A DNA stretch of 64,000 bases from Oscillatoriales cyanobacterium RM2_1_1. GTDB taxonomy: Bacteria; Cyanobacteriota; Cyanobacteriia; Cyanobacteriales; Microcoleaceae. The notes under the pieces were generated by a model that worked only from the letters and a program-made list of their open reading frames with translations, made no database searches and had not been told where the DNA came from. Below are positions 31,143 through 42,430 of the stretch, piece after piece (positions within the stretch are counted from its first letter, which is position 1; every line of letters begins with the position of its first letter). The position numbers and the translations under genes were made by a program. The stretch covers positions 1 to 64,000 of the forward strand of contig JAAURB010000003.1 in assembly GCA_012033335.1 (NCBI GenBank). The letters run 5' to 3'.

Positions 31143-31886
31143 ATGTCTAATCTCAAAACATCCCCAATTCAACTGGTTGTGTTCGATATGGCGGGCACAA
31201 CAGTCAAAGACAGCAACGAAGTTCAGGGTTGTTTTTTTGCTGCCGCCGAAGCCACTGGTTTGTCAGCAGCACCGGAACGAATTATTGCCATGATGGGCTG
31301 GACAAAGAAATTAGTCTTTCAAACCCTCTGGGCTGAGCAAATTGGCCTTAAACATCCAGACTACCCTCAAAATGTTGAGGCTTCCTATACTAAGTTCAAG
31401 GAAGTTCTCGAAAATCACTATCGGACTCAACCCGTAGAACCCACCGACGGCTGTCTGGAACTGTTTGAATGGCTCAAATCCCAGGATATTAAAATTGGTT
31501 TAAATACAGGGTTTTACCGAGAAGTAACTGATATTATTTTGGAGCGTTTGGGATGGTATCAAGACCTGGATCAAAACTACGTGGGTTCAAGCTCTTCCAT
31601 CATTCAAGTCTCGGTTACTCCCTCAGAAATTTATCAGAATGAAGGCCGACCCGCCCCTTACATGATTCAAAAAGCTATGTATAAGTTGGGGATCAAAAAT
31701 TCCCAGCAGGTGATTACAATTGGAGATACCCCGGCGGATATTGAGGCTGGAACTAATGCCGGGTGCTGCCTATCTTTGGGTGTTACCAATGGAACTCATA
31801 CCAGGGAACAATTGGAACAGTATGCTCACGATGGATTAATCAATTCAATTAATGAATTAAAAGCAAGAATAGAGTCAGAACGTTAA
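31143..31886 (+). CDS. phosphonatase-like HAD hydrolase (TIGR03351 type)
   Basis: 247-aa haloacid-dehalogenase superfamily hydrolase. The nucleophile motif is VVFDMAGTTV (Asp15 and the unusual Ala at the general-acid position, as in phosphonoacetaldehyde hydrolase PhnX). MMGWTKKLVF corresponds to the cap region with the Schiff-base lysine of PhnX. IGLNTGFYREV is motif II, and VITIGDTPADIEAG is the terminal acidic motif. By family knowledge TIGR03351 enzymes are PhnX-like and sit next to an FAD oxidoreductase, exactly as here. The likely role is C-P bond cleavage of a phosphonate breakdown product. The real substrate is unproven. The next gene starts 47 nt downstream. Confidence 0.85.
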   Translation: MSNLKTSPIQLVVFDMAGTTVKDSNEVQGCFFAAAEATGLSAAPERIIAMMGWTKKLVFQTLWAEQIGLKHPDYPQNVEASYTKFKEVLENHYRTQPVEPTDGCLELFEWLKSQDIKIGLNTGFYREVTDIILERLGWYQDLDQNYVGSSSSIIQVSVTPSEIYQNEGRPAPYMIQKAMYKLGIKNSQQVITIGDTPADIEAGTNAGCCLSLGVTNGTHTREQLEQYAHDGLINSINELKARIESER

Positions 31887-31933
31887 AGAAAAATTAGAGA
31901 AAAAGTTAAAGAAAACCAAAAAAACAAATAGTC

Positions 31934-33061
31934 GTGATCAATCAAACAGATGTTGCCATCATTGGGGCCGGAATTGTGGGTCTAGCCCATGCCCTGGTTG
32001 CCGCCCGACGAGGATCAAAAGTAACCGTTTTTGAGCGCCATCCCCAAGTCGTTGGGGCTTCGATTCGCAATTTTGGTATGGTCTGGCCCGTGGGCCAACC
32101 CCTTGGGCAGATGCGCGATCGCGCCCTGCGCTCCCGGGAAATCTGGCTTGAAATGGGGGCAAACGCTGGATTTGCCACCGATCCCTGCGGTTCCCTGCAT
32201 GTGGCTTACCGAGAGGATGAAATGGCAGTCATTAAGGAGTTTGTGGCCACGGTGGGGCCACAAACTCAAACCGTGGCTTGGCTTACCCCGGATCAGGTTG
32301 CTAAAAAAAGCCCGGCGGTGAGGCTAGAGGGCTTACAGGGAGCCCTATGGAGTTCAACGGAGGTGATTGTGGATCCCCGGGAGGCGATCGCCAAATTGCC
32401 AGCTTTTTTGGCTTCGGAGTATGGGATTGAGTTTAAATTTGGTACGGTGGTCACCGAGATTGATCCACCCAAATTGCTGGCGGGGGGGGAACCATGGCGG
32501 GCCAATCAAATCTTGGTCTGTAGCGGAGCAGATTTTGAAACCTTGTATCCAGAAGTTTATGCCAATAGCGGCATCACTAAAGTGAAGCTGCAAATGATGC
32601 GAACTAGCCCCCAACCCGATCAATTTCGGATTGGGGCAGCCCTCTGCGGCGGCCTAACCCTGACCCACTACGCTTCGTTTGCCCATTGTCACTCCTTAGC
32701 CGGATTAAAAACGAGAATTCAAACTGAAACGCCTTGGTTCCCAAAGTGGGGAATTCATGTCATGGTTTCCCAGAATTCTGCGGGGGAATTAATCATTGGA
32801 GATTCCCATGAGTATGGGTTAAATCCTGATCCATTTGATCGCGCAGATTTGAATCGGTATATCCTCGATTATCTGAAAATATTTGCTCAATTCCCATCCT
32901 TTGACATTGCGGAAACCTGGCATGGAATCTATGCCAAATGGGTTGGAAAAACTGAATTGATTCTCCATCCTCAACCCGGTGTAACGATTGTGAATGGATT
33001 GAGTGGGGCAGGTATGACCCTTGCCTTTGGACTGGCGGAAGAAGTGATGGGTTCAATCTAA
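31934..33061 (+). CDS. FAD-dependent oxidoreductase (TIGR03364 / HpnW-like)
   Basis: 375-aa DAO-type flavoenzyme starting with GTG. The dinucleotide-binding motif is VAIIGAGIVGLAHALVAARRG (residues ~6-26) and the C-terminal FAD block is VNGLSGAGMTLAFGLAEE. ASIRNFGMVWPVGQPLGQM is the family's FAD/substrate stretch. TIGR03364 enzymes are described as syntenic partners of TIGR03351 HADs and are proposed to oxidatively deaminate an aminophosphonate related to 2-aminoethylphosphonate, giving the aldehyde that the HAD cleaves. Both genes are present here in that order, forming a two-gene operon. No phosphonate transporter is in the window. Confidence 0.85.
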   Translation: MINQTDVAIIGAGIVGLAHALVAARRGSKVTVFERHPQVVGASIRNFGMVWPVGQPLGQMRDRALRSREIWLEMGANAGFATDPCGSLHVAYREDEMAVIKEFVATVGPQTQTVAWLTPDQVAKKSPAVRLEGLQGALWSSTEVIVDPREAIAKLPAFLASEYGIEFKFGTVVTEIDPPKLLAGGEPWRANQILVCSGADFETLYPEVYANSGITKVKLQMMRTSPQPDQFRIGAALCGGLTLTHYASFAHCHSLAGLKTRIQTETPWFPKWGIHVMVSQNSAGELIIGDSHEYGLNPDPFDRADLNRYILDYLKIFAQFPSFDIAETWHGIYAKWVGKTELILHPQPGVTIVNGLSGAGMTLAFGLAEEVMGSI

Positions 33062-33128: not shown

Positions 33129-36100
33129 CTAATCCTGGACTTGAGCCAGGAACTGACCGAGCTTTTGAGCTAGTTCCTGAACATGGGGTTCTAAGATAAA
33201 GGAATAATGATCCCCAGGAATATTAATTACTTCAATTTCTACAGCATCCAGGATTGAGAATAACTCTACCCAGACAAGCTGGGGATCGGCAGCCATAATA
33301 TGTTTTTCCCGGGCTCGAAAGACCGTGACTTTACCGGAATAGGGTTGACGTTGGTAGTCATAGGTTGCTTTCAACGTTCCCACCAGAACATTTAAAATTC
33401 TATGATTTTGTTGGTGCTCGACCTCAGGGGGGAAAATGCCAACCTGCCGGGATTTTTCAATGATAAAGTTAAGTTTTTCTGTCGTTGTTAAATCTTGTAA
33501 TTCCTCAGGAGTGACTAAATTATCTAGACCAAACATTCCCCCAAATACCCGAGACAAAACACCCACCAGGTAAGTGTCATCAATTTGCTTGTTTTTGTCT
33601 AACAAAATAGGGACATAGGAATCCAAAATTGCCAAATGGCTAACAGTTTGCCCCTGTTGAGCGAGTTGTTGAGCTACTTCGTAGGCAACCACTCCTCCAA
33701 ATGACCAACCCCCAATCTGATAGGGCCCTTCCGGTTTAAACTGGCGAATCGCATTGACATACAAATTAGCCATCGCTTCAACGGTTTCTAAAACTATTTC
33801 TCCCGCCGCAAAACCTTGAGCTTGTAGACCATAAAAGGGTTGACTATTTCCCAGATAACGAGCCAGGTTCACATAGCAAAGTACATGACCCCCAGCCGGA
33901 TGAATGCAAAAGAAAGGCTCCTGTTGTCCCTGGGGTTGAATTGAAACCAAAGGAGAATTGGCCATAGAATGGGGAGAATTTTTCAGCAGATTTGCTAATG
34001 CTTCAACGGTAGGATGGGTCAACAAATTAGTTAAAGCTAGGGAACAATTCAGATGTTGTTGAATTTTTCCCAGGAGCTGAATTGCCAGTAAAGAATGGCC
34101 ACCCAACTCAAAAAAGTTGTCTTTGATGCTAACAGGATTGACATTCAATAGGTCTTGCCAGATTCTTACTAATTGCACTTCAAGATGATTTCGAGGCGGA
34201 ATCAATTGAGGTTGAGTCCGGAAATGAATCACAGTAGGTTGAGGTAAGGCTTGGCGATTAACTTTTCCATTGGACGTTAGAGGGATGGCATCTAAAATAA
34301 CAAAGGCCGAGGGAACAATGTAGTCTGGAAGTTGATGCCGCAGAAAATTCCGTAACTCTTCAGGGGTGAGAGATTCAGACTGTTGATCTTGAGTTTTCAA
34401 GTCTCGAACTGGCACTAAATAAGCGACTAACTGCTTTTCAGCAGATGGATTATTTTGGGCGATGACGATGGCCTCTCGAATTTGAGGATGCTGGGTTAAG
34501 CTGTGTTCGATCTCACCTAATTCAATCCGAAAGCCCCGAATTTTAACCTGATAATCAAGCCGATTTAAATACTCAATATTCCCATCGGGTAAATACCTGA
34601 CTAAGTCTCCAGTTTTATAGAGAAACCCAGAGGTATAAGGATTAGCAATAAACCTTTCTGCAGTAAGTTCTGGTCTATTTAAATAGCCTTGTGCCACCTG
34701 TATTCCGCCAATGTATAGTTCTCCTGAAACTCCAAGAGGAACAGGTTGCAAACCAGAATTTAAAATATAAATCTGTGTATTCGCAATCGGTTTTCCAATG
34801 GGTACACAGGACAATGTGCTGTTGGCTTGACAGTGCCAGGCGGTAACATCAATGGCGGCTTCTGTGGGGCCATAAAGATTATAAAGCTGACAATTTAACC
34901 GCTGAAAAAATTGAGCTTGTAAGCTCAGACTCAGGGCTTCTCCACTACAAATTACTCGTCTTAGGCTCTGACATGCCGTTAGATCTTCTTCTAGTAGATC
35001 TTCTTCTAGAAAAATCTGTAACATTGAGGGGACAAAGTGTAGGGTTGTGATTTGCTGCTCCACAATAATCTCAGTCAGATAACGACTATCTTTGTGGCCT
35101 TGTGGTTTAGCAATTACTAAACAGGCTCCTGAGATTAACGGCCAGAAAATTTCCCATACTGAAACATCAAAACTATAGGGTGTTTTTTGTAATATCCTAT
35201 CTGTTGGATCAAGTTGATAGGTTTCCTGCATCCAGAATAAACGGTTACAGATTCCCTGGTGAGTATTCATTACTCCCTTGGGTTTTCCTGTTGAACCTGA
35301 AGTATAAATTACATAAGCCAGACTTTGAGGCATTGTTTTGAAACCTGGATTGTCTTCAGGTTCTGACCTGATTTTCTGCCAGATTTCATTCCAATCAATT
35401 ATTCTTGTCTGATCCTGAGGGAATAGACGACTCAGCGGTTTACCAACAAGCACCAAAGGAACCTGGGTATCTTTTTCCTGCATATCTTCTAAGACATAGG
35501 CTAGCCGTTCAGGAGGATGCTCTGGATCAAGTGGAACATAAGCGGCTCCTGCTTTTAGAATCCCCAACAAACTGACAACCATTTCAACAGAACGTTCAAT
35601 GCAAACCCCTACAAGGGTCTCTGATTTAACACCTGATTTAGTTAAATAATGGGCTAGTTGATTTGCTAATTGATTGAGTTGAGAATAGGTTAGAGTTTGA
35701 TTTCTAAAGATCAGCGCGGTGGCATTTGGAGTATTTTTGGCCTGAAGCTCAAACCAGTATTGTAGAGGTTTAGATAGGTCATAATCCCGTGCAGTTTGAT
35801 TCCATTCGACTAAAATGGTTTGCTTTTCAGCTTCACTCAAAATCGATAGTTGATCAATTGGTTTCTGAGGGTTTTCACACACAGATCGAAGTAAGTTTTG
35901 AAAATGTTGGGAGAATTTTTGAGCGGTCTGAGCTGGAATTGAATCCTGATTATATTTGAAGTAGACTAGTAGACGATCTGAGAATGGGATAAATTCTAAA
36001 CTGAAGTCAAACTCCAGCTTTTGTGTGGGTAGTTCTAAATATTTGAATTCCAGGGATTGATCACCTTCAAACAACTGAAATACATACCCTAAACTTGAAA

Positions 36101-37211
36101 TATCAGAGTAGGCAAAAGCTCCTTGGCAGAGGGAAGAACGTTCTATTTGGGACAAATTTTGGGATGAAATTTGGAGAGATTGATGGGTTTGAACTAGCTT
36201 GGAAAAGGGATAATTCTGATAGGGTAAGGATTCTCGTAAGGTTTGACTGACTTGAGCTAGAATCCCCTCAAAGCTCATATCTCCACTCACCCAATCCCGC
36301 AATAAAATAGCATTGAGAAAGTTGCCTATCAGTTTCTCAGACTGACCAATTTTACCTGAAATTAATCGGCCGACAATAATATCTTCTTCCCTGGTATATA
36401 GATGAAGCAGAACTTTATATATTGCCAGGAGTAGGACTTCAAGATCAATGTTATAGCGACTTGAAAGATGTCTGAGGTTTTCGGTTAATTCCTGATCAAT
36501 TAGAAATTGATAACTTGAACCATTATAAGTTCTTAAAGCAGTAGATAAAGTAAAAGGTAATCGCAATCCTGGAAGCTCACCAGTCAATTTTTGTCTCCAG
36601 TAAATCTCACTTTCAGTAAAATTAAGAGATGCTATTGAGCTGAGTTGTCGGTCGATCTGCTCCCTGTAGTTTCTATCGGACTGCATGAAATCAAAATTCT
36701 GAAAATCAATTTCAGGTTCTTCCAGACTAGAATGATAAAGTGTCAGAAATTCATCAGTTAAAATTAATAAAGATTCCCAATCTCCTGCAAGCTGATGCAG
36801 GGTAATTAGCAAGACGGGAAATTGCCCAGAACAATGAAGGAGTTGAACTCGGAATGGATAATTTTCTGACAATTGAAACGGCTGCTCAATTAGTATTGAG
36901 ATGGCATTTTCAAGTTCTACCTGGCTTAAATCAGAAAAATTGATTTCTTGAAAGTTAAGGGCGATTTGGGGCTGAATCACCTGAATCACCTGATTATCTT
37001 GCTCTCGATACATCGTTCTTAGACTGGGATGACGACTCACGAGAATCTGAAAAACTTGCCTGATTTTTTTCTGATCAATTTGGCTTAAAGCTTGTAGGGC
37101 TAGAGCTAGTTTATCCCTAATTCCTCTAGGGGAAAGTTGATACAAAAACCAGTTACTTTGTTGAATTGGCGTTAAAGGCAGAGAAATTGAAGGGAACAGG
37201 GATTGAGTCAT
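33129..37211 (-). CDS. mysE: MysE-type NRPS with extra condensation domain (C-A-T-TE)
   Basis: 1360-aa non-ribosomal peptide synthetase, predicted last enzyme of a shinorine-type pathway. Domains: condensation (~10-440), adenylation (~485-1000, core YTSGSTGKPKG near 637), carrier (FFELGGHSLLAIQLL near 1035) and thioesterase (GGWSFGGVVAYE near 1170). Reading the specificity pocket against GrsA gives D-V-W-H-I-S-L-I-D-K, almost the classic serine code. The A, T and TE parts closely resemble remembered Anabaena MysE, which is A-T-TE only; the condensation domain is extra. Its HHxxxDG motif reads LHQLAGD: the second His is kept, the first His and Asp are not. The EntF-like order C-A(Ser)-T-TE is an alternative reading, but mysB and mysC next door favour MAA synthesis. 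Confidence 0.85.
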   Translation of the reverse strand: MTQSLFPSISLPLTPIQQSNWFLYQLSPRGIRDKLALALQALSQIDQKKIRQVFQILVSRHPSLRTMYREQDNQVIQVIQPQIALNFQEINFSDLSQVELENAISILIEQPFQLSENYPFRVQLLHCSGQFPVLLITLHQLAGDWESLLILTDEFLTLYHSSLEEPEIDFQNFDFMQSDRNYREQIDRQLSSIASLNFTESEIYWRQKLTGELPGLRLPFTLSTALRTYNGSSYQFLIDQELTENLRHLSSRYNIDLEVLLLAIYKVLLHLYTREEDIIVGRLISGKIGQSEKLIGNFLNAILLRDWVSGDMSFEGILAQVSQTLRESLPYQNYPFSKLVQTHQSLQISSQNLSQIERSSLCQGAFAYSDISSLGYVFQLFEGDQSLEFKYLELPTQKLEFDFSLEFIPFSDRLLVYFKYNQDSIPAQTAQKFSQHFQNLLRSVCENPQKPIDQLSILSEAEKQTILVEWNQTARDYDLSKPLQYWFELQAKNTPNATALIFRNQTLTYSQLNQLANQLAHYLTKSGVKSETLVGVCIERSVEMVVSLLGILKAGAAYVPLDPEHPPERLAYVLEDMQEKDTQVPLVLVGKPLSRLFPQDQTRIIDWNEIWQKIRSEPEDNPGFKTMPQSLAYVIYTSGSTGKPKGVMNTHQGICNRLFWMQETYQLDPTDRILQKTPYSFDVSVWEIFWPLISGACLVIAKPQGHKDSRYLTEIIVEQQITTLHFVPSMLQIFLEEDLLEEDLTACQSLRRVICSGEALSLSLQAQFFQRLNCQLYNLYGPTEAAIDVTAWHCQANSTLSCVPIGKPIANTQIYILNSGLQPVPLGVSGELYIGGIQVAQGYLNRPELTAERFIANPYTSGFLYKTGDLVRYLPDGNIEYLNRLDYQVKIRGFRIELGEIEHSLTQHPQIREAIVIAQNNPSAEKQLVAYLVPVRDLKTQDQQSESLTPEELRNFLRHQLPDYIVPSAFVILDAIPLTSNGKVNRQALPQPTVIHFRTQPQLIPPRNHLEVQLVRIWQDLLNVNPVSIKDNFFELGGHSLLAIQLLGKIQQHLNCSLALTNLLTHPTVEALANLLKNSPHSMANSPLVSIQPQGQQEPFFCIHPAGGHVLCYVNLARYLGNSQPFYGLQAQGFAAGEIVLETVEAMANLYVNAIRQFKPEGPYQIGGWSFGGVVAYEVAQQLAQQGQTVSHLAILDSYVPILLDKNKQIDDTYLVGVLSRVFGGMFGLDNLVTPEELQDLTTTEKLNFIIEKSRQVGIFPPEVEHQQNHRILNVLVGTLKATYDYQRQPYSGKVTVFRAREKHIMAADPQLVWVELFSILDAVEIEVINIPGDHYSFILEPHVQELAQKLGQFLAQVQD

Positions 37212-37229: not shown

Positions 37230-38660
37230 CTATACTTCAGAATCAGATTCGGAGCCGAGCATATTTAAATGATGACCGATCAAATAAACACAGGTTCCAG
37301 ATAACATTCCAGGCAAAACTTCATAAACTGCACCGGATAATCCCAGTCCCAAATTCCAAATAAAAGCCATCAGGATTCCACTCAACATCATGGCGATCGC
37401 GATCCCTGTTGTTACTGGTTTTTGTAAAACTCTTACAATTAGTAAAGGCCCCAAACCAGCAGCTAAAGCTGACCAGGAAAACGTGATTAATGAGAAGACA
37501 CTATTATTGTCAATCAGGGCAATCGCCAGTACAATTGCTGTTACAGTTAAGGTTCCAATCTTGATCCATCGATAGGACTTTGCCCCTTGAGGAAATATAT
37601 CCTGAGTCAGGGCAGCAGAACAGGAAAGGATTTGGGAATCCGCTGTTGAGATAGTCGCAGAAAATAGCCCAGCCATCATCAGTCCAACCAGGAATCCAGG
37701 CAATAACTCCAGGGATAAATAGGGGAGTGCCAGTTCTGGATCTCCTGTGTTGAGTAAGTCAGGTAAGAGTACCCGAGCGGCTATTCCAATGACAATAGCA
37801 CAACAGGAATTTACTGTGGCTAATAGTAACTTTAAATCCCGAGCAAATGCAATATTCTGACTGGAATTAATTGCCATTGCTCTGACAACAATATGGGGCT
37901 GACCGACAACCCCAAACCCAGCCCCAATCCAGCCCAGAAAGAAAGGAATGAAGCCAAATTGTAGACTTTCAGGATTCCAATTGATTAGATCTGAATCAAT
38001 TGCCATGAGTTGTATCCAGAGGGATTGAAATCCACCACAATTGACCAGGGCAACAGTAGATAAAATCAGCAATGAAATCATCATAATAATAGCTTGAATT
38101 GCATCTGTCCAGATTGATGCTCGAATACCTCCTGAAAAGCAATAAACAGCAACAACGACTGCACCAATGATGACTCCAGAAGAATAATCCCAGCCAAATA
38201 CTGAATTTAGCGCTTTACTTCCTGCTACCAATTGTGCCGCCGCATAGGTACCCAGGAAAGTAATGGTAATTATTGCTGAAACCAGGGTAATTAAACGGTA
38301 CTTTCCTGATGCCTGACCCAAAAACTCTGAAACCGTTTCTGAATTTTTAGCCTCTGAGACTTCTCGAAGTCGCCGAAAGATCAACCACCAGGCTATATAG
38401 TCCCCAATTGCCCAACCAATTGTCAACCACAAAGCAGAAATTCCAACCTTGTAGGCAAATCCAACCTGACCAATAAAAAGCAGACCACTTTGCCCTGTTG
38501 CCAGGGCTGACAAGGCAGTTAACCAGGGATTAACATTGCGACTGGCTAATAGATAATCAGTAGTTGTAGCCTGTTTCTGAGTGGCAGAATAAACTCCCAC
38601 AATAATAAATAAAATGAGAAAACTGATAAAGGTGACTGCAATCCAGAATTGATCCGTCAT
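37230..38660 (-). CDS. sodium:solute symporter (SSS/PutP-like)
   Basis: 476-aa polytopic membrane protein of the solute:sodium symporter family with about 13 hydrophobic segments. Recognisable blocks are TTDYLLASRNVNPWLTALSA, ATGQSGLLFIGQVGFAYKVG and FSGGIRASIWTDAIQAIIMM, as in PutP-type carriers. GLFSATISTADSQILSCSA is the conserved region around the second sodium site. The stop is 18 nt before the NRPS start and it follows mysC by 68 nt, so it is part of the MAA operon. The substrate could be glycine, serine or another precursor, or the MAA itself, by context only. SSS carriers are not usual members of MAA clusters as I know them. Confidence 0.88.
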   Translation of the reverse strand: MTDQFWIAVTFISFLILFIIVGVYSATQKQATTTDYLLASRNVNPWLTALSALATGQSGLLFIGQVGFAYKVGISALWLTIGWAIGDYIAWWLIFRRLREVSEAKNSETVSEFLGQASGKYRLITLVSAIITITFLGTYAAAQLVAGSKALNSVFGWDYSSGVIIGAVVVAVYCFSGGIRASIWTDAIQAIIMMISLLILSTVALVNCGGFQSLWIQLMAIDSDLINWNPESLQFGFIPFFLGWIGAGFGVVGQPHIVVRAMAINSSQNIAFARDLKLLLATVNSCCAIVIGIAARVLLPDLLNTGDPELALPYLSLELLPGFLVGLMMAGLFSATISTADSQILSCSAALTQDIFPQGAKSYRWIKIGTLTVTAIVLAIALIDNNSVFSLITFSWSALAAGLGPLLIVRVLQKPVTTGIAIAMMLSGILMAFIWNLGLGLSGAVYEVLPGMLSGTCVYLIGHHLNMLGSESDSEV

Positions 38661-38728: not shown

Positions 38729-40120
38729 TTAGTCTCCTCCTGGCTCAACTAATTTACCAATATTAAAATCAATCCGAATCCATCCTTTAAGCTGACGTAA
38801 ATTTTTCAGTAAAAGTAGAGGAATATGCCAGTGATGTACCATTAAAAAAGGCAGTGGATCATTGATTTGAAAAATTGCATCTTTTCCGTGATTGATAGTT
38901 TGCCACCACTGTTGTAATTTCTCCCAAGAATTGACCTTAGTTAACCGCCACAGCTCATGATAGAGCCAATAGGTGGGCTGACTACTTTTCAAGGGGGTAA
39001 TTGGTAGTTCATTGTTTTGAGCATCTTTTAAGTAAACTTCAGCCACTCCAGGATGATTGTAAAACATTGTAATCGCTGAATGAGTTCTGGGATTACACTC
39101 TATAGGATAGACTGTACCATCAGGGGCTTGAATAAAATCAAAAGAGATCTGGCCCGTCAAATTCAGTGCTTGTACAAAAGTTTCAACCCAACGATAGATT
39201 TCCAGATTCTCAATCTGTTGATAATTGACCTGGAATGGTGAAGATTTACTACAGCAATGTAATCGAATTATTCCCTGTCGGACAGTACTATGGGTGCAGT
39301 ATTCTTGACCCCTGATAAATTCCTGCATAATCCAGGGACTAACCTCACTAATTGGTAGGGATTTAACAAACTCTTCCAGGTCGGCTTTTGACGGGAGTGG
39401 CAGTTTAGTTAAATCTAGTCGATGAACTGAATCATAGGGAATACTTTTGAGAATATATTGTCGATTTTCCTGGGAAAAATCAAAGTCCAAAATTTGTTTT
39501 GAGTGGGTAATTAAATAAGATTTTGGAACTGACAACCCAATTGTTTCTGCCTTCTGAATAAATGTGAATTTATTATCCAAAAGCTGGGTAATTTCAGGAT
39601 CAAAATGAATCATTTCACAATGAGGCGACAGCAAAGGCTTGACCACAGAATAGTAGTAACTTTCTACAGGACTAGTGACGGGAATCAAAACATTAATCTT
39701 TTCATTCCGGACAATTTCTAGTAAATCCTGGGAGAATTTTTCTAGATTTTCCTGGGGAGATGTTACGGTATAAAACCGCTGAACTGCCCTAGAAAAATGG
39801 TGTCCAGTCAGCCAGTATTTGTGGGTTTCAACTAGAAAAACAGTATGACCCGCGTCGTTAAAAGAGCGTGCTAGCTGTAGGGCTTTAGTCATTTTCCCAC
39901 CCGTGATCAAAATCTTTTGAGGATTTGAATTGATAACCGGGGGGGAAAAAAGATCTCGAATTGATTGAACGACTATGGCCATTAAAACTAGGACAAGATT
40001 AAAGGGTAAGGCTAATGCGAGTAAACTCAATGTGCCGATGTTTTGAAGAATTGCAAAGGCTCGGTGGGGCCGAACAAATAAAACTTGAGACATAGTTATG
40101 GGTTTATCATTATTGATCAT
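38729..40120 (-). CDS. mysC: ATP-grasp mycosporine-glycine synthase
   Basis: 463 aa. The protein matches remembered Anabaena MysC almost block by block: NPQKILITGGKMTKALQLAR, ETHKYWLTGHHFSRAVQRFY, DNKFTFIQKAETIGLSVPKSY, LKSIPYDSVHRLDLTKLPLP, WIMQEFIRGQEYCTHSTVR, FDFIQAPDGTVYPIECNPRT and the C-terminal GWIRIDFNIGKLVEPGGD. Two hydrophobic segments at about residues 25-50 suggest membrane association. By known biochemistry it ligates glycine to 4-deoxygadusol using ATP. The internal ATG at 40093 is an alternative start. mysB ends 46 nt upstream. Confidence 0.93.
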   Translation of the reverse strand: MINNDKPITMSQVLFVRPHRAFAILQNIGTLSLLALALPFNLVLVLMAIVVQSIRDLFSPPVINSNPQKILITGGKMTKALQLARSFNDAGHTVFLVETHKYWLTGHHFSRAVQRFYTVTSPQENLEKFSQDLLEIVRNEKINVLIPVTSPVESYYYSVVKPLLSPHCEMIHFDPEITQLLDNKFTFIQKAETIGLSVPKSYLITHSKQILDFDFSQENRQYILKSIPYDSVHRLDLTKLPLPSKADLEEFVKSLPISEVSPWIMQEFIRGQEYCTHSTVRQGIIRLHCCSKSSPFQVNYQQIENLEIYRWVETFVQALNLTGQISFDFIQAPDGTVYPIECNPRTHSAITMFYNHPGVAEVYLKDAQNNELPITPLKSSQPTYWLYHELWRLTKVNSWEKLQQWWQTINHGKDAIFQINDPLPFLMVHHWHIPLLLLKNLRQLKGWIRIDFNIGKLVEPGGD

Positions 40121-40166: not shown

Positions 40167-40997
40167 CTATAGACAACGAATTAAAGTCAAGCCATCCCGG
40201 AGCGGTAATAAGACCTGTTCTACCCTTGGATCATTGGCAACAACCTGATTAAACTTGGCGATCGCCCGACCATTTTCGGTTTGGTATTCAGCGGGTAAAT
40301 AGGGTTGACCCTGAAAGAGAGTATTATCCACACAAATAACCGCATTAGGCATCAGCAAATTGCTTTCAAGGAGCCGATTGAAGTATTCAATGTATTCTTT
40401 TTTATCAGCATCAATGAATACAAAATCAAACTGCTCTCCCAATTCTGCCAAGTATGACATAGTCACCAATGCAGGGGCAACTTTTACAATGATTTTTTCG
40501 CCATGGGGTGAGATAGCAAAACAATTGAGAGCAAATTTTGCCACATATTCATCAACCTCACAGGCAATTAATTCTCCATCAATTGGTAATCCCTCGGCGA
40601 TCGCTAATGCCGAATATCCGGTGAACAGACCAATCTCTAAAACTCGTCTAGCTCCCATCATTTGAACCAGCAATTTTAAAGTTTGTCCCTCAATATGTCC
40701 AGACAGCATTTCCTGCTCTAAATGACGGATTGTTTCTCCATCAGAAAAACGTTGATTCCAGGGTTCCTGTCGAGTTTTTTTAGCCAGTAATGCCAGGGCT
40801 GCCGATTCTTGAGTAGTTGCATGTTCCAGATAGGGATCTAAACCTGCCGCCAGTTGATACGCTTGATCAATCAGGTCTGAAATCTCTATAGGAATTTCAG
40901 TTTTCTCGATCAGATGAACCGCTTGTTCTAGTTTTTCTGCCAGAATTCCTAAGGGTGTAACAGGTCGAGGGGGAAAGGAATATGTTGTGGAAATCAT
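40167..40997 (-). CDS. mysB: O-methyltransferase of MAA synthesis
   Basis: About 276-aa SAM-dependent O-methyltransferase that would convert demethyl-4-deoxygadusol to 4-deoxygadusol. The start is taken at the ATG at 40997; an upstream in-frame start at 41066 adds 23 residues unlike the family. The SAM motif is VLEIGLFTGYSALAIAEG, with LIACEVDEYV and FDFVFIDADKKEYIEYFN (metal/SAM-binding Asp), and the C-terminus has DPRVEQVLLPLRDGLTLIRC. These and FSDGETIRHLEQEMLSGHIE resemble remembered Anabaena MysB very closely. It is the first gene of the cluster in this window; the usual upstream partner mysA is not found in the 1.9 kb beyond it. Confidence 0.93.
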   Translation of the reverse strand: MISTTYSFPPRPVTPLGILAEKLEQAVHLIEKTEIPIEISDLIDQAYQLAAGLDPYLEHATTQESAALALLAKKTRQEPWNQRFSDGETIRHLEQEMLSGHIEGQTLKLLVQMMGARRVLEIGLFTGYSALAIAEGLPIDGELIACEVDEYVAKFALNCFAISPHGEKIIVKVAPALVTMSYLAELGEQFDFVFIDADKKEYIEYFNRLLESNLLMPNAVICVDNTLFQGQPYLPAEYQTENGRAIAKFNQVVANDPRVEQVLLPLRDGLTLIRCL

Positions 40998-42430
40998 ACT
41001 TGTGTTTGTGGATTGTTTGTAGAGAAATAGGCTCAATGAAATTCTGCCGCAGCCTGACTGCGTCAATTTGCGTCAATTTACATCAATTGTTGAATCAGAA
41101 TATTGGTAAACAGTTCTAGTGAGCTGTCAGGTTTACCTGGTTGTTGACTTGTTATTGAGTCGAAGTCAATTCTGATGAATCAGAAAACCTGATTATCGAA
41201 TTAATTTTTTCACTGCTACAGAGATGATTTGTGTCGATATAGACCCATCTGTATTCGTTGGTTTTGTCACTTTCTACAGGGAATTGAGGGATAGTTATTC
41301 TCAGCTTGACTTGAGTTTGGCTCATGCAGTTTGACCTCGATTAGGAACAATGAAATAGACGGCCTCGCACTAACATCCCATAATTAAGTAGGCTAGCTTT
41401 TAAAAGCTTGCTAATGGCACTCAGGAAATAACAAACAGCATTTAAAAGCAATAAATAGTATCAGAACCATTCATTGACCAACAATATGCTGTTTCCCAAT
41501 TCGCAATGAATGAGGAGATATTGATCTCATGGCCTGAGCAGAGTTTGAAAAGTCGGATTTGGTTATCCGATAGATTGAGCCGGTAAAATCAGTAGGTGAT
41601 TCTATGGTCATTATCGAACCCTATTGATTTTGAAGCACAACGTAGTAGCCGAAATCTGCCAATAGATATAGATAGAGTATAGAAAAATCCCTAACCGACT
41701 TTTGGGAAATTTCTATTAGCTCAGATCAATCATTTAGACAATAGTAAAATTGCTTTTGCCGACCTGGGATGATTTCAACCTGGAGCGTTGCTATTCAGCA
41801 AAAATTCCAGTTGCATCAGGTTCCCCAATCTTGATCAAAATAAATAATCAGTGGAGTATGGCTTGAGAAAAGTCTGTCCCCTGAACAGTGGTTGAGTAGA
41901 AAGGAGAACACTCTCTTCGTGCCCCAGTTTCCATTTGAGGTTGCAACCAAAATTAACTTGCTGATCTGGACTGGCCAGTTTTTCAGCTAAGACAATTTGC
42001 AGTAGCAATCCAGTTTGAAAATTATTCACGAATTTCCCAAGGGCTAAACCCCTGCCTGACCGAATTAGCTCTCGTTTGATAGTGTAGCGCTAAGTGTTTC
42101 GATTTAGACAAAACCCCCATTAACTTTCGTTAAAGATTTTATCTAAATTGCTAAGGTTTGAAATAACATTTCACTTGCATTTTTTTGAGAAACATTGATG
42201 CTTTCAGGCTAATACCCTTGATCCCCTCTATTCTCTCGGATAGGCGATCGCCCATTATCAAACAGGAAATCCAGGAAAGTGCCCTACACGGGCCAGCATT
42301 CCTGTCAGAGCTTGAGAGGGAATTGGAGTCAAAGTCCTTTAGAATGGGTTGATTGAGGGGGCTAATGCAAAAATCTATGAATTGCTCAGAAATTCTCTGG
42401 CAAAATCCCAATCAGATCTTGAAAGAACCT
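40998..42430. other. gene-free region upstream of mysB
   Basis: About 1.4 kb with no credible reading frame on either strand, the longest gene-poor stretch in the window. It must contain the mysB promoter. I looked for remains of a sedoheptulose-7-phosphate cyclase (mysA) on the minus strand and saw none. The short minus-strand frames at 41835-42029 and 42151-42411 have no recognisable motifs. Confidence 0.45.

Follow-up and report, generated by a model that had tools for sequence, protein, structure and literature searches.

Why does a MysE-type NRPS carry a condensation (C) domain, when MysE joins serine to mycosporine-glycine by an imine and not by an amide? This question is raised by a gene in the window, by which we mean the whole stretch of 64,000 nucleotides from Oscillatoriales cyanobacterium RM2_1_1 that was analysed (Table 1). 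The initial annotation read the protein as C-A-T-TE, with MysE-like A, T and TE parts and a serine pocket code, and regarded the C domain as an unusual extra with a degenerate catalytic motif that had either been retooled or was a relic. The Pfam domain order bears out this architecture (Condensation 11-467, 219.7 bits; AMP-binding 487-844; AMP-binding_C 900-983; PP-binding 1013-1076; Thioesterase 1099-1219), and the serine code was recovered by alignment. The protein has the features by which MysE was recognised here, namely intact catalytic motifs in A, T and TE, a Ser, Gly or Pro code and a gene that is encoded with mysB and mysC. In a tree of A-T-TE regions built with other MysE proteins, it falls inside the MysE clade (SH-aLRT 100; 57 rows). 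The MysE A-T-TE regions form one clade (support 100) that includes a protein of 1842 aa on a long branch (L019), and over A-T-TE the window protein has 66% identity to MysE of Coleofasciculus and 62% to that of Anabaena, which has the same serine code. We therefore assign the window protein to MysE, and predict from its sequence that it joins an amino acid to mycosporine-glycine.

Table 1. Coordinates of mysE, its domains and the adjoining MAA genes in the window.
Feature	Position	Strand	Basis
MysE-type NRPS, 1360 aa, C-A-T-TE	33129..37211	-	ORF; Pfam; MysE clade
Condensation domain, HQLAGDW replacing HHxxxDG, full C-domain fold	35811..37181	-	Pfam PF00668, PDB alignments, AlphaFold2
Adenylation domain, serine code DVWHISLIDK	34263..35753	-	Pfam 487-983 aa; code by alignment
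Thiolation (PCP) domain, GGHS intact	33984..34175	-	Pfam 1013-1076 aa
Thioesterase domain, GGWSFGG and PGDHY intact	33132..33917	-	Pfam 1099-1219 aa
SSF-family sodium:solute symporter in MAA operon	37230..38660	-	Pfam; cluster survey
mysC, ATP-grasp mycosporine-glycine synthase	38729..40120	-	NCBIfam PRK06849, 524 bits vs cut-off 406
mysB, 4-deoxygadusol O-methyltransferase (Methyltransf_3)	40167..41066	-	Pfam and cluster comparison

Upstream of mysE and on the same strand lie, in order, the SSF symporter gene at a distance of 18 bases, the mysC-like gene and the mysB-like gene. No mysA adjoins mysE, mysC or mysB in the window. The nearest candidate, and the only one in the genome, is a DHQ-synthase homologue encoded apart from mysBC on contig C77 (L036, 7792-9602), with 63-76% identity to long MysA from other clusters and one frameshift in a C run, which may be an assembly error. 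The gene downstream of this candidate also apparently shifts frame, and C77 may be an error-rich contig or one in real decay. A search of the window genome for MysD as a substitute, run without a positive control in that genome, gave no match; phosphopantetheinyl-transferase gave one, and a whole-genome search returned the window C domain as the sole condensation domain. There is neither an acyl-ligase nor an upstream carrier gene in the mysE operon. The SSF symporter gene adjoins mysC in many non-Nostoc MAA clusters (L041, L045, L050, L072 and others; ~60-71% identity), making its product a candidate transporter of MAA or a precursor. Beside mysE on the opposite strand (31143-33061) is a phosphonatase-like HAD hydrolase paired with an HpnW-type FAD oxidoreductase (TIGR03364), probably an aminophosphonate degradation unit.

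To judge how unusual the C domain is, MAA clusters were gathered with a MysC profile from named genomes and from other genomes. Their MysE proteins occur in three states: 23 have a full C domain (full-C), 18 have the C-lobe only (half-C) and 17, which are of the Anabaena and Fischerella types, lack the domain altogether (no-C). The full-C state is found in Okeania, Trichodesmium, Symploca, Hormoscilla, Oscillatoria PCC 10802, Coleofasciculus, Brasilonema, Calothrix, Chlorogloeopsis and HT-58-2, among others. The same architecture, given as C-A-CP-TE, is described in published passages on Gloeothece citriformis PCC 7424, Nostocales HT-58-2 and Moorena producens (PMC10510106) and on HT-58-2 and Chlorogloeopsis PCC 6912 and PCC 9212 (PMC8073705). 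It is therefore already known, the domain is not the unusual extra that it was first taken for, and many MysE proteins carry it. The MysE of HT-58-2 (L060) and Chlorogloeopsis PCC 6912 (L115) resemble that of the window in architecture and MAA context, and their C domains belong to the same clade and likewise lack the second His of the catalytic motif. The window protein differs from the published examples in having no adjacent mysA, and its C domain is far diverged, with 30% identity over C to HT-58-2 and 33% to Chlorogloeopsis. The passages on C-A-CP-TE MysE in these two papers do not mention the catalytic motif.

In the 18 half-C proteins, C homology begins at model position 187-208 of 452, which is the start of the C-lobe (LKEYWEKQLAGELP), so that the last 55-60% of the domain is retained behind the protein's own start. 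No clear N-lobe remnant was seen upstream of the C-lobe in these 18 proteins; this, together with in-frame upstream stops, counters the idea that the annotation missed a start or split a gene. Several begin with a MKASF..SEL start, like that of full-length Brasilonema MysE, joined straight to the C-lobe, which points to in-frame excision. The half-C proteins (L201, L216, L218, L219, L230-L231 and L233-L244) are Nostocaceae MysE of 1110-1166 aa, most of them from Gly-type clusters that also encode a TauD-like dioxygenase and a second methyltransferase. In the open-access literature searched, neither C-lobe-only MysE nor loss of the motif across the family is mentioned.

HMMER alignments to solved C domains place HQLAGDW of the window opposite HHSISDG of TycC (2jgp) and HHIVSDG of Txo1, and a MAFFT alignment of 55 C domains gives the same register. 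Because both alignments fix the register at this point, the first His and the Asp must be counted as retained, while the second (catalytic) His is replaced by Gln and the Gly by Trp. The motif is thus degenerate, as initially described, but the register used then was off, and the claimed loss of the first His and the Asp was wrong. We extended the comparison to 23 full-length MysE C domains and 32 other cyanobacterial C domains. An intact HHxxxDG is present in 0/23 of the former versus 25/32 of the latter, a loss that is not due to chance, and the second His is retained in 2/23 versus 29/32. The second-His site of MysE is occupied by Gln in 12 domains, Lys, Ser and Cys in three each and His in two; the Gly is kept in 2/23, the Asp in 23/23, and the first His is fully conserved. 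Outside the MysE family, two NRPS of 1339 and 1334 aa encoded behind a TauD-like gene (L246 6382-10398 and L249 2418-6419) have PALYAD for HHxxxD in their first C domain, with both His lost. A bimodular NRPS of 2450 aa away from MAA genes (L033 8133-15482) has HQIASDS in its first C domain and a last module with 53% identity to MysE.

With HQLAGDW at this site, the window domain lacks the intact HHxxxDG of amide-forming (LCL) domains, the DxxxxD of heterocyclization (Cy) domains and the intact HHxxxDG of starter C domains, and the operon encodes no acyl donor partner for a starter type. Its AlphaFold2 model (pLDDT 74.8) predicts an ordinary two-lobe C fold, the closest solved fold being the C-A structure of Txo2 (6p1j; VIA Z 28.6, rmsd 3.9 Å, 411 residues), and its best PDB sequence matches are TycC, Txo1, Txo2 and DhbF. 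The model of a construct that joins half-C to A (L098) was poor overall (pLDDT 47.8), the C-lobe exceeding 75 in parts only, and was given no weight for the C-A interface. X-domain folds also match the window model (Z 24 to 27, rmsd 4.7 to 5.0 Å), and the X domain of glycopeptide-antibiotic NRPS (HRxxxDD) provides a precedent for a C fold with a decayed second His and without amide synthesis (PMC11546977). The X domain recruits P450s in glycopeptide synthetases, whereas the window domain has neither HRxxxDD nor, among the neighbouring genes scanned, a P450 partner, and it is N-terminal. A second precedent is the C domain of streptothricin ORF18 (HQxxxDM), which in its described motif is like that of the window, having the first His, the Asp and a Gln at the second His, and is unlike it in that peptide-bond activity has been demonstrated (PMC11546977). 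Loss of the second His alone is therefore no proof of inactivity.

In the C-domain tree, the 23 MysE sequences group as a single clade (SH-aLRT 100) next to C domains from C-A-T-TE synthetases, of which some have an intact HHxxxDG, and by inspection the main subgroups match those of the A-T-TE tree. This agreement argues that the common ancestor of MysE most likely already had a C domain, which was later lost, not gained. Anabaena-type MysE (Ava_3855 type, A-T-TE), from which the domain is absent, would then be derived by C-domain loss. A single clade for all no-C rows is rejected (AU p 0.0013), as is one for all half-C rows (AU p 7e-59); the half-C state occurs at three well-separated places in the tree, namely a large Gly-type clade, L201 and L216. 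On these topologies, several lineages have deleted the motif-bearing N-lobe, and at least two have lost the entire domain. Full-C Brasilonema fall within the half-C clade, which may reflect further losses or a regain.

Selection on the domain is relaxed and still purifying. Pooled over six close MysE pairs, dN/dS falls from 0.39 (0.31-0.49) in the N-lobe to 0.27 in the C-lobe, 0.19 in A and 0.10 in T-TE, against 0.22, 0.17, 0.21 and 0.24, respectively, in four control pairs, which are few and of which two share one gene, one has dS >1 and one is without the motif Gly. The N-lobe value therefore indicates relaxed, not neutral, evolution. T-TE is the most constrained part of MysE, which would suit an active role of T-TE in ligation.

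The amino-acid code does not track the state of the C domain in the Ser and Gly types, since the Ser code is common to full-C, half-C and no-C MysE and the Gly code to full-C (Brasilonema) and half-C (Nostoc) MysE. Conversion of mycosporine-glycine to shinorine is reported both for Chlorogloeopsis PCC 6912, in which the full C domain of MysE has Cys at the second-His site, and for C-less A. variabilis (PMC7693272). In Brasilonema, the MysE sequences of which were compared here from other strains, two strains produce palythine (PMC9918943). Marine MysE of Okeania, Trichodesmium, Hormoscilla and Symploca (L030, L045, L049, L050, L069, L075 and L101) combine full C domains with a Pro-like A code, DVQ-(V/I)AQVVK, and have mysD-like, EamA and second methyltransferase genes as neighbours.

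We consider it probable (roughly 0.7) that the C domain of the window protein is a pseudo-condensation domain inherited from an ancestor, which catalysis can do without and which is kept mainly as a scaffold. MysE would load serine, by way of A, onto a carrier of its own (T), and the chemistry of T and/or TE would join it to mycosporine-glycine. The N-terminal C domain would have come from an ordinary amide-forming NRPS termination module ancestral to MysE; with an imine-forming free small molecule as partner, amide condensation would have become superfluous and the active site would have decayed in every sampled branch. Weak purifying selection would still preserve the fold, above all the C-lobe beside the A domain, most likely because it serves as a structural platform or aids solubility, until all but the C-lobe is trimmed away or the whole domain disappears. 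An N-lobe dN/dS well below 1 and a full domain in many lineages set a limit to this reading, in that the domain is no free-floating pseudogene. Between the two options first offered, a relic or scaffold is favoured over retooling for mycosporine-glycine or the imine because the domain is ancestral, no single residue replaces the second His, the N-lobe or the whole domain has been lost, and shinorine is reported for C-bearing Chlorogloeopsis and C-less Anabaena alike; persistent purifying selection leaves some room for a binding role.

If retooled, the domain would bind mycosporine-glycine in place of the donor, or channel it to the seryl-T thioester, and an altered active site would aid acylation or imine formation. 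The complete fold, the fully conserved first His and Asp, the dN/dS below 1, the activity possible in HQ-type C domains (PMC11546977) and a near-constant HQIAGD inside the Okeania/Trichodesmium/Symploca group all accord with this. We nevertheless think it unlikely: the second-His site is Q, K, C or H at the same serine code, several lineages have dispensed with the motif-bearing N-lobe and at least two with the entire domain, and full-C Chlorogloeopsis and C-less Anabaena reportedly yield the same product (PMC7693272). A related and quite improbable idea is that the decayed domain would be a non-catalytic site capturing mycosporine-glycine for seryl-T/TE, of which the C-lobe-only MysE of Nostoc would keep the essential half. 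It is more doubtful still that the window pathway itself is decaying, such that its C domain would tell us little. The frameshifted MysA homologue on C77 and the long branches of the window protein (1.21 in the C tree, 0.49 in the A-T-TE tree) fit such decay, but mysB, mysC, the SSF gene and mysE are open, the A, T and TE motifs are intact, the frameshift is possibly an assembly error and intact clusters throughout the family show the loss of the motif. Least probable of all is a C domain whose atypical active site still forms an amide or ester and would yield a modified MAA, for instance one with an acylated serine: a passage in PMC8073705 raises the possibility that the product is affected by the additional domain and ORF18 shows a workable non-canonical motif (PMC11546977), but neither a carrier upstream nor an acyl-ligase partner is encoded in the operon, this is the sole C domain of the genome, and Chlorogloeopsis is reported to produce shinorine itself (PMC7693272).

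What seemed an add-on is thus recast, if the pseudo-condensation reading is right, as one stage of a domain-decay series that runs from a full C domain with a broken site through the C-lobe only to no C domain, with common downstream machinery and in some cases an identical product. Half-C proteins are probably missed by domain-detection pipelines; published MysE are mostly listed as A-CP in passages of PMC10510106. Full-C, half-C and no-C MysE are natural constructs for testing what imine formation needs, and the series lets one ask whether the platform of C-lobe and A domain has a non-catalytic structural role.
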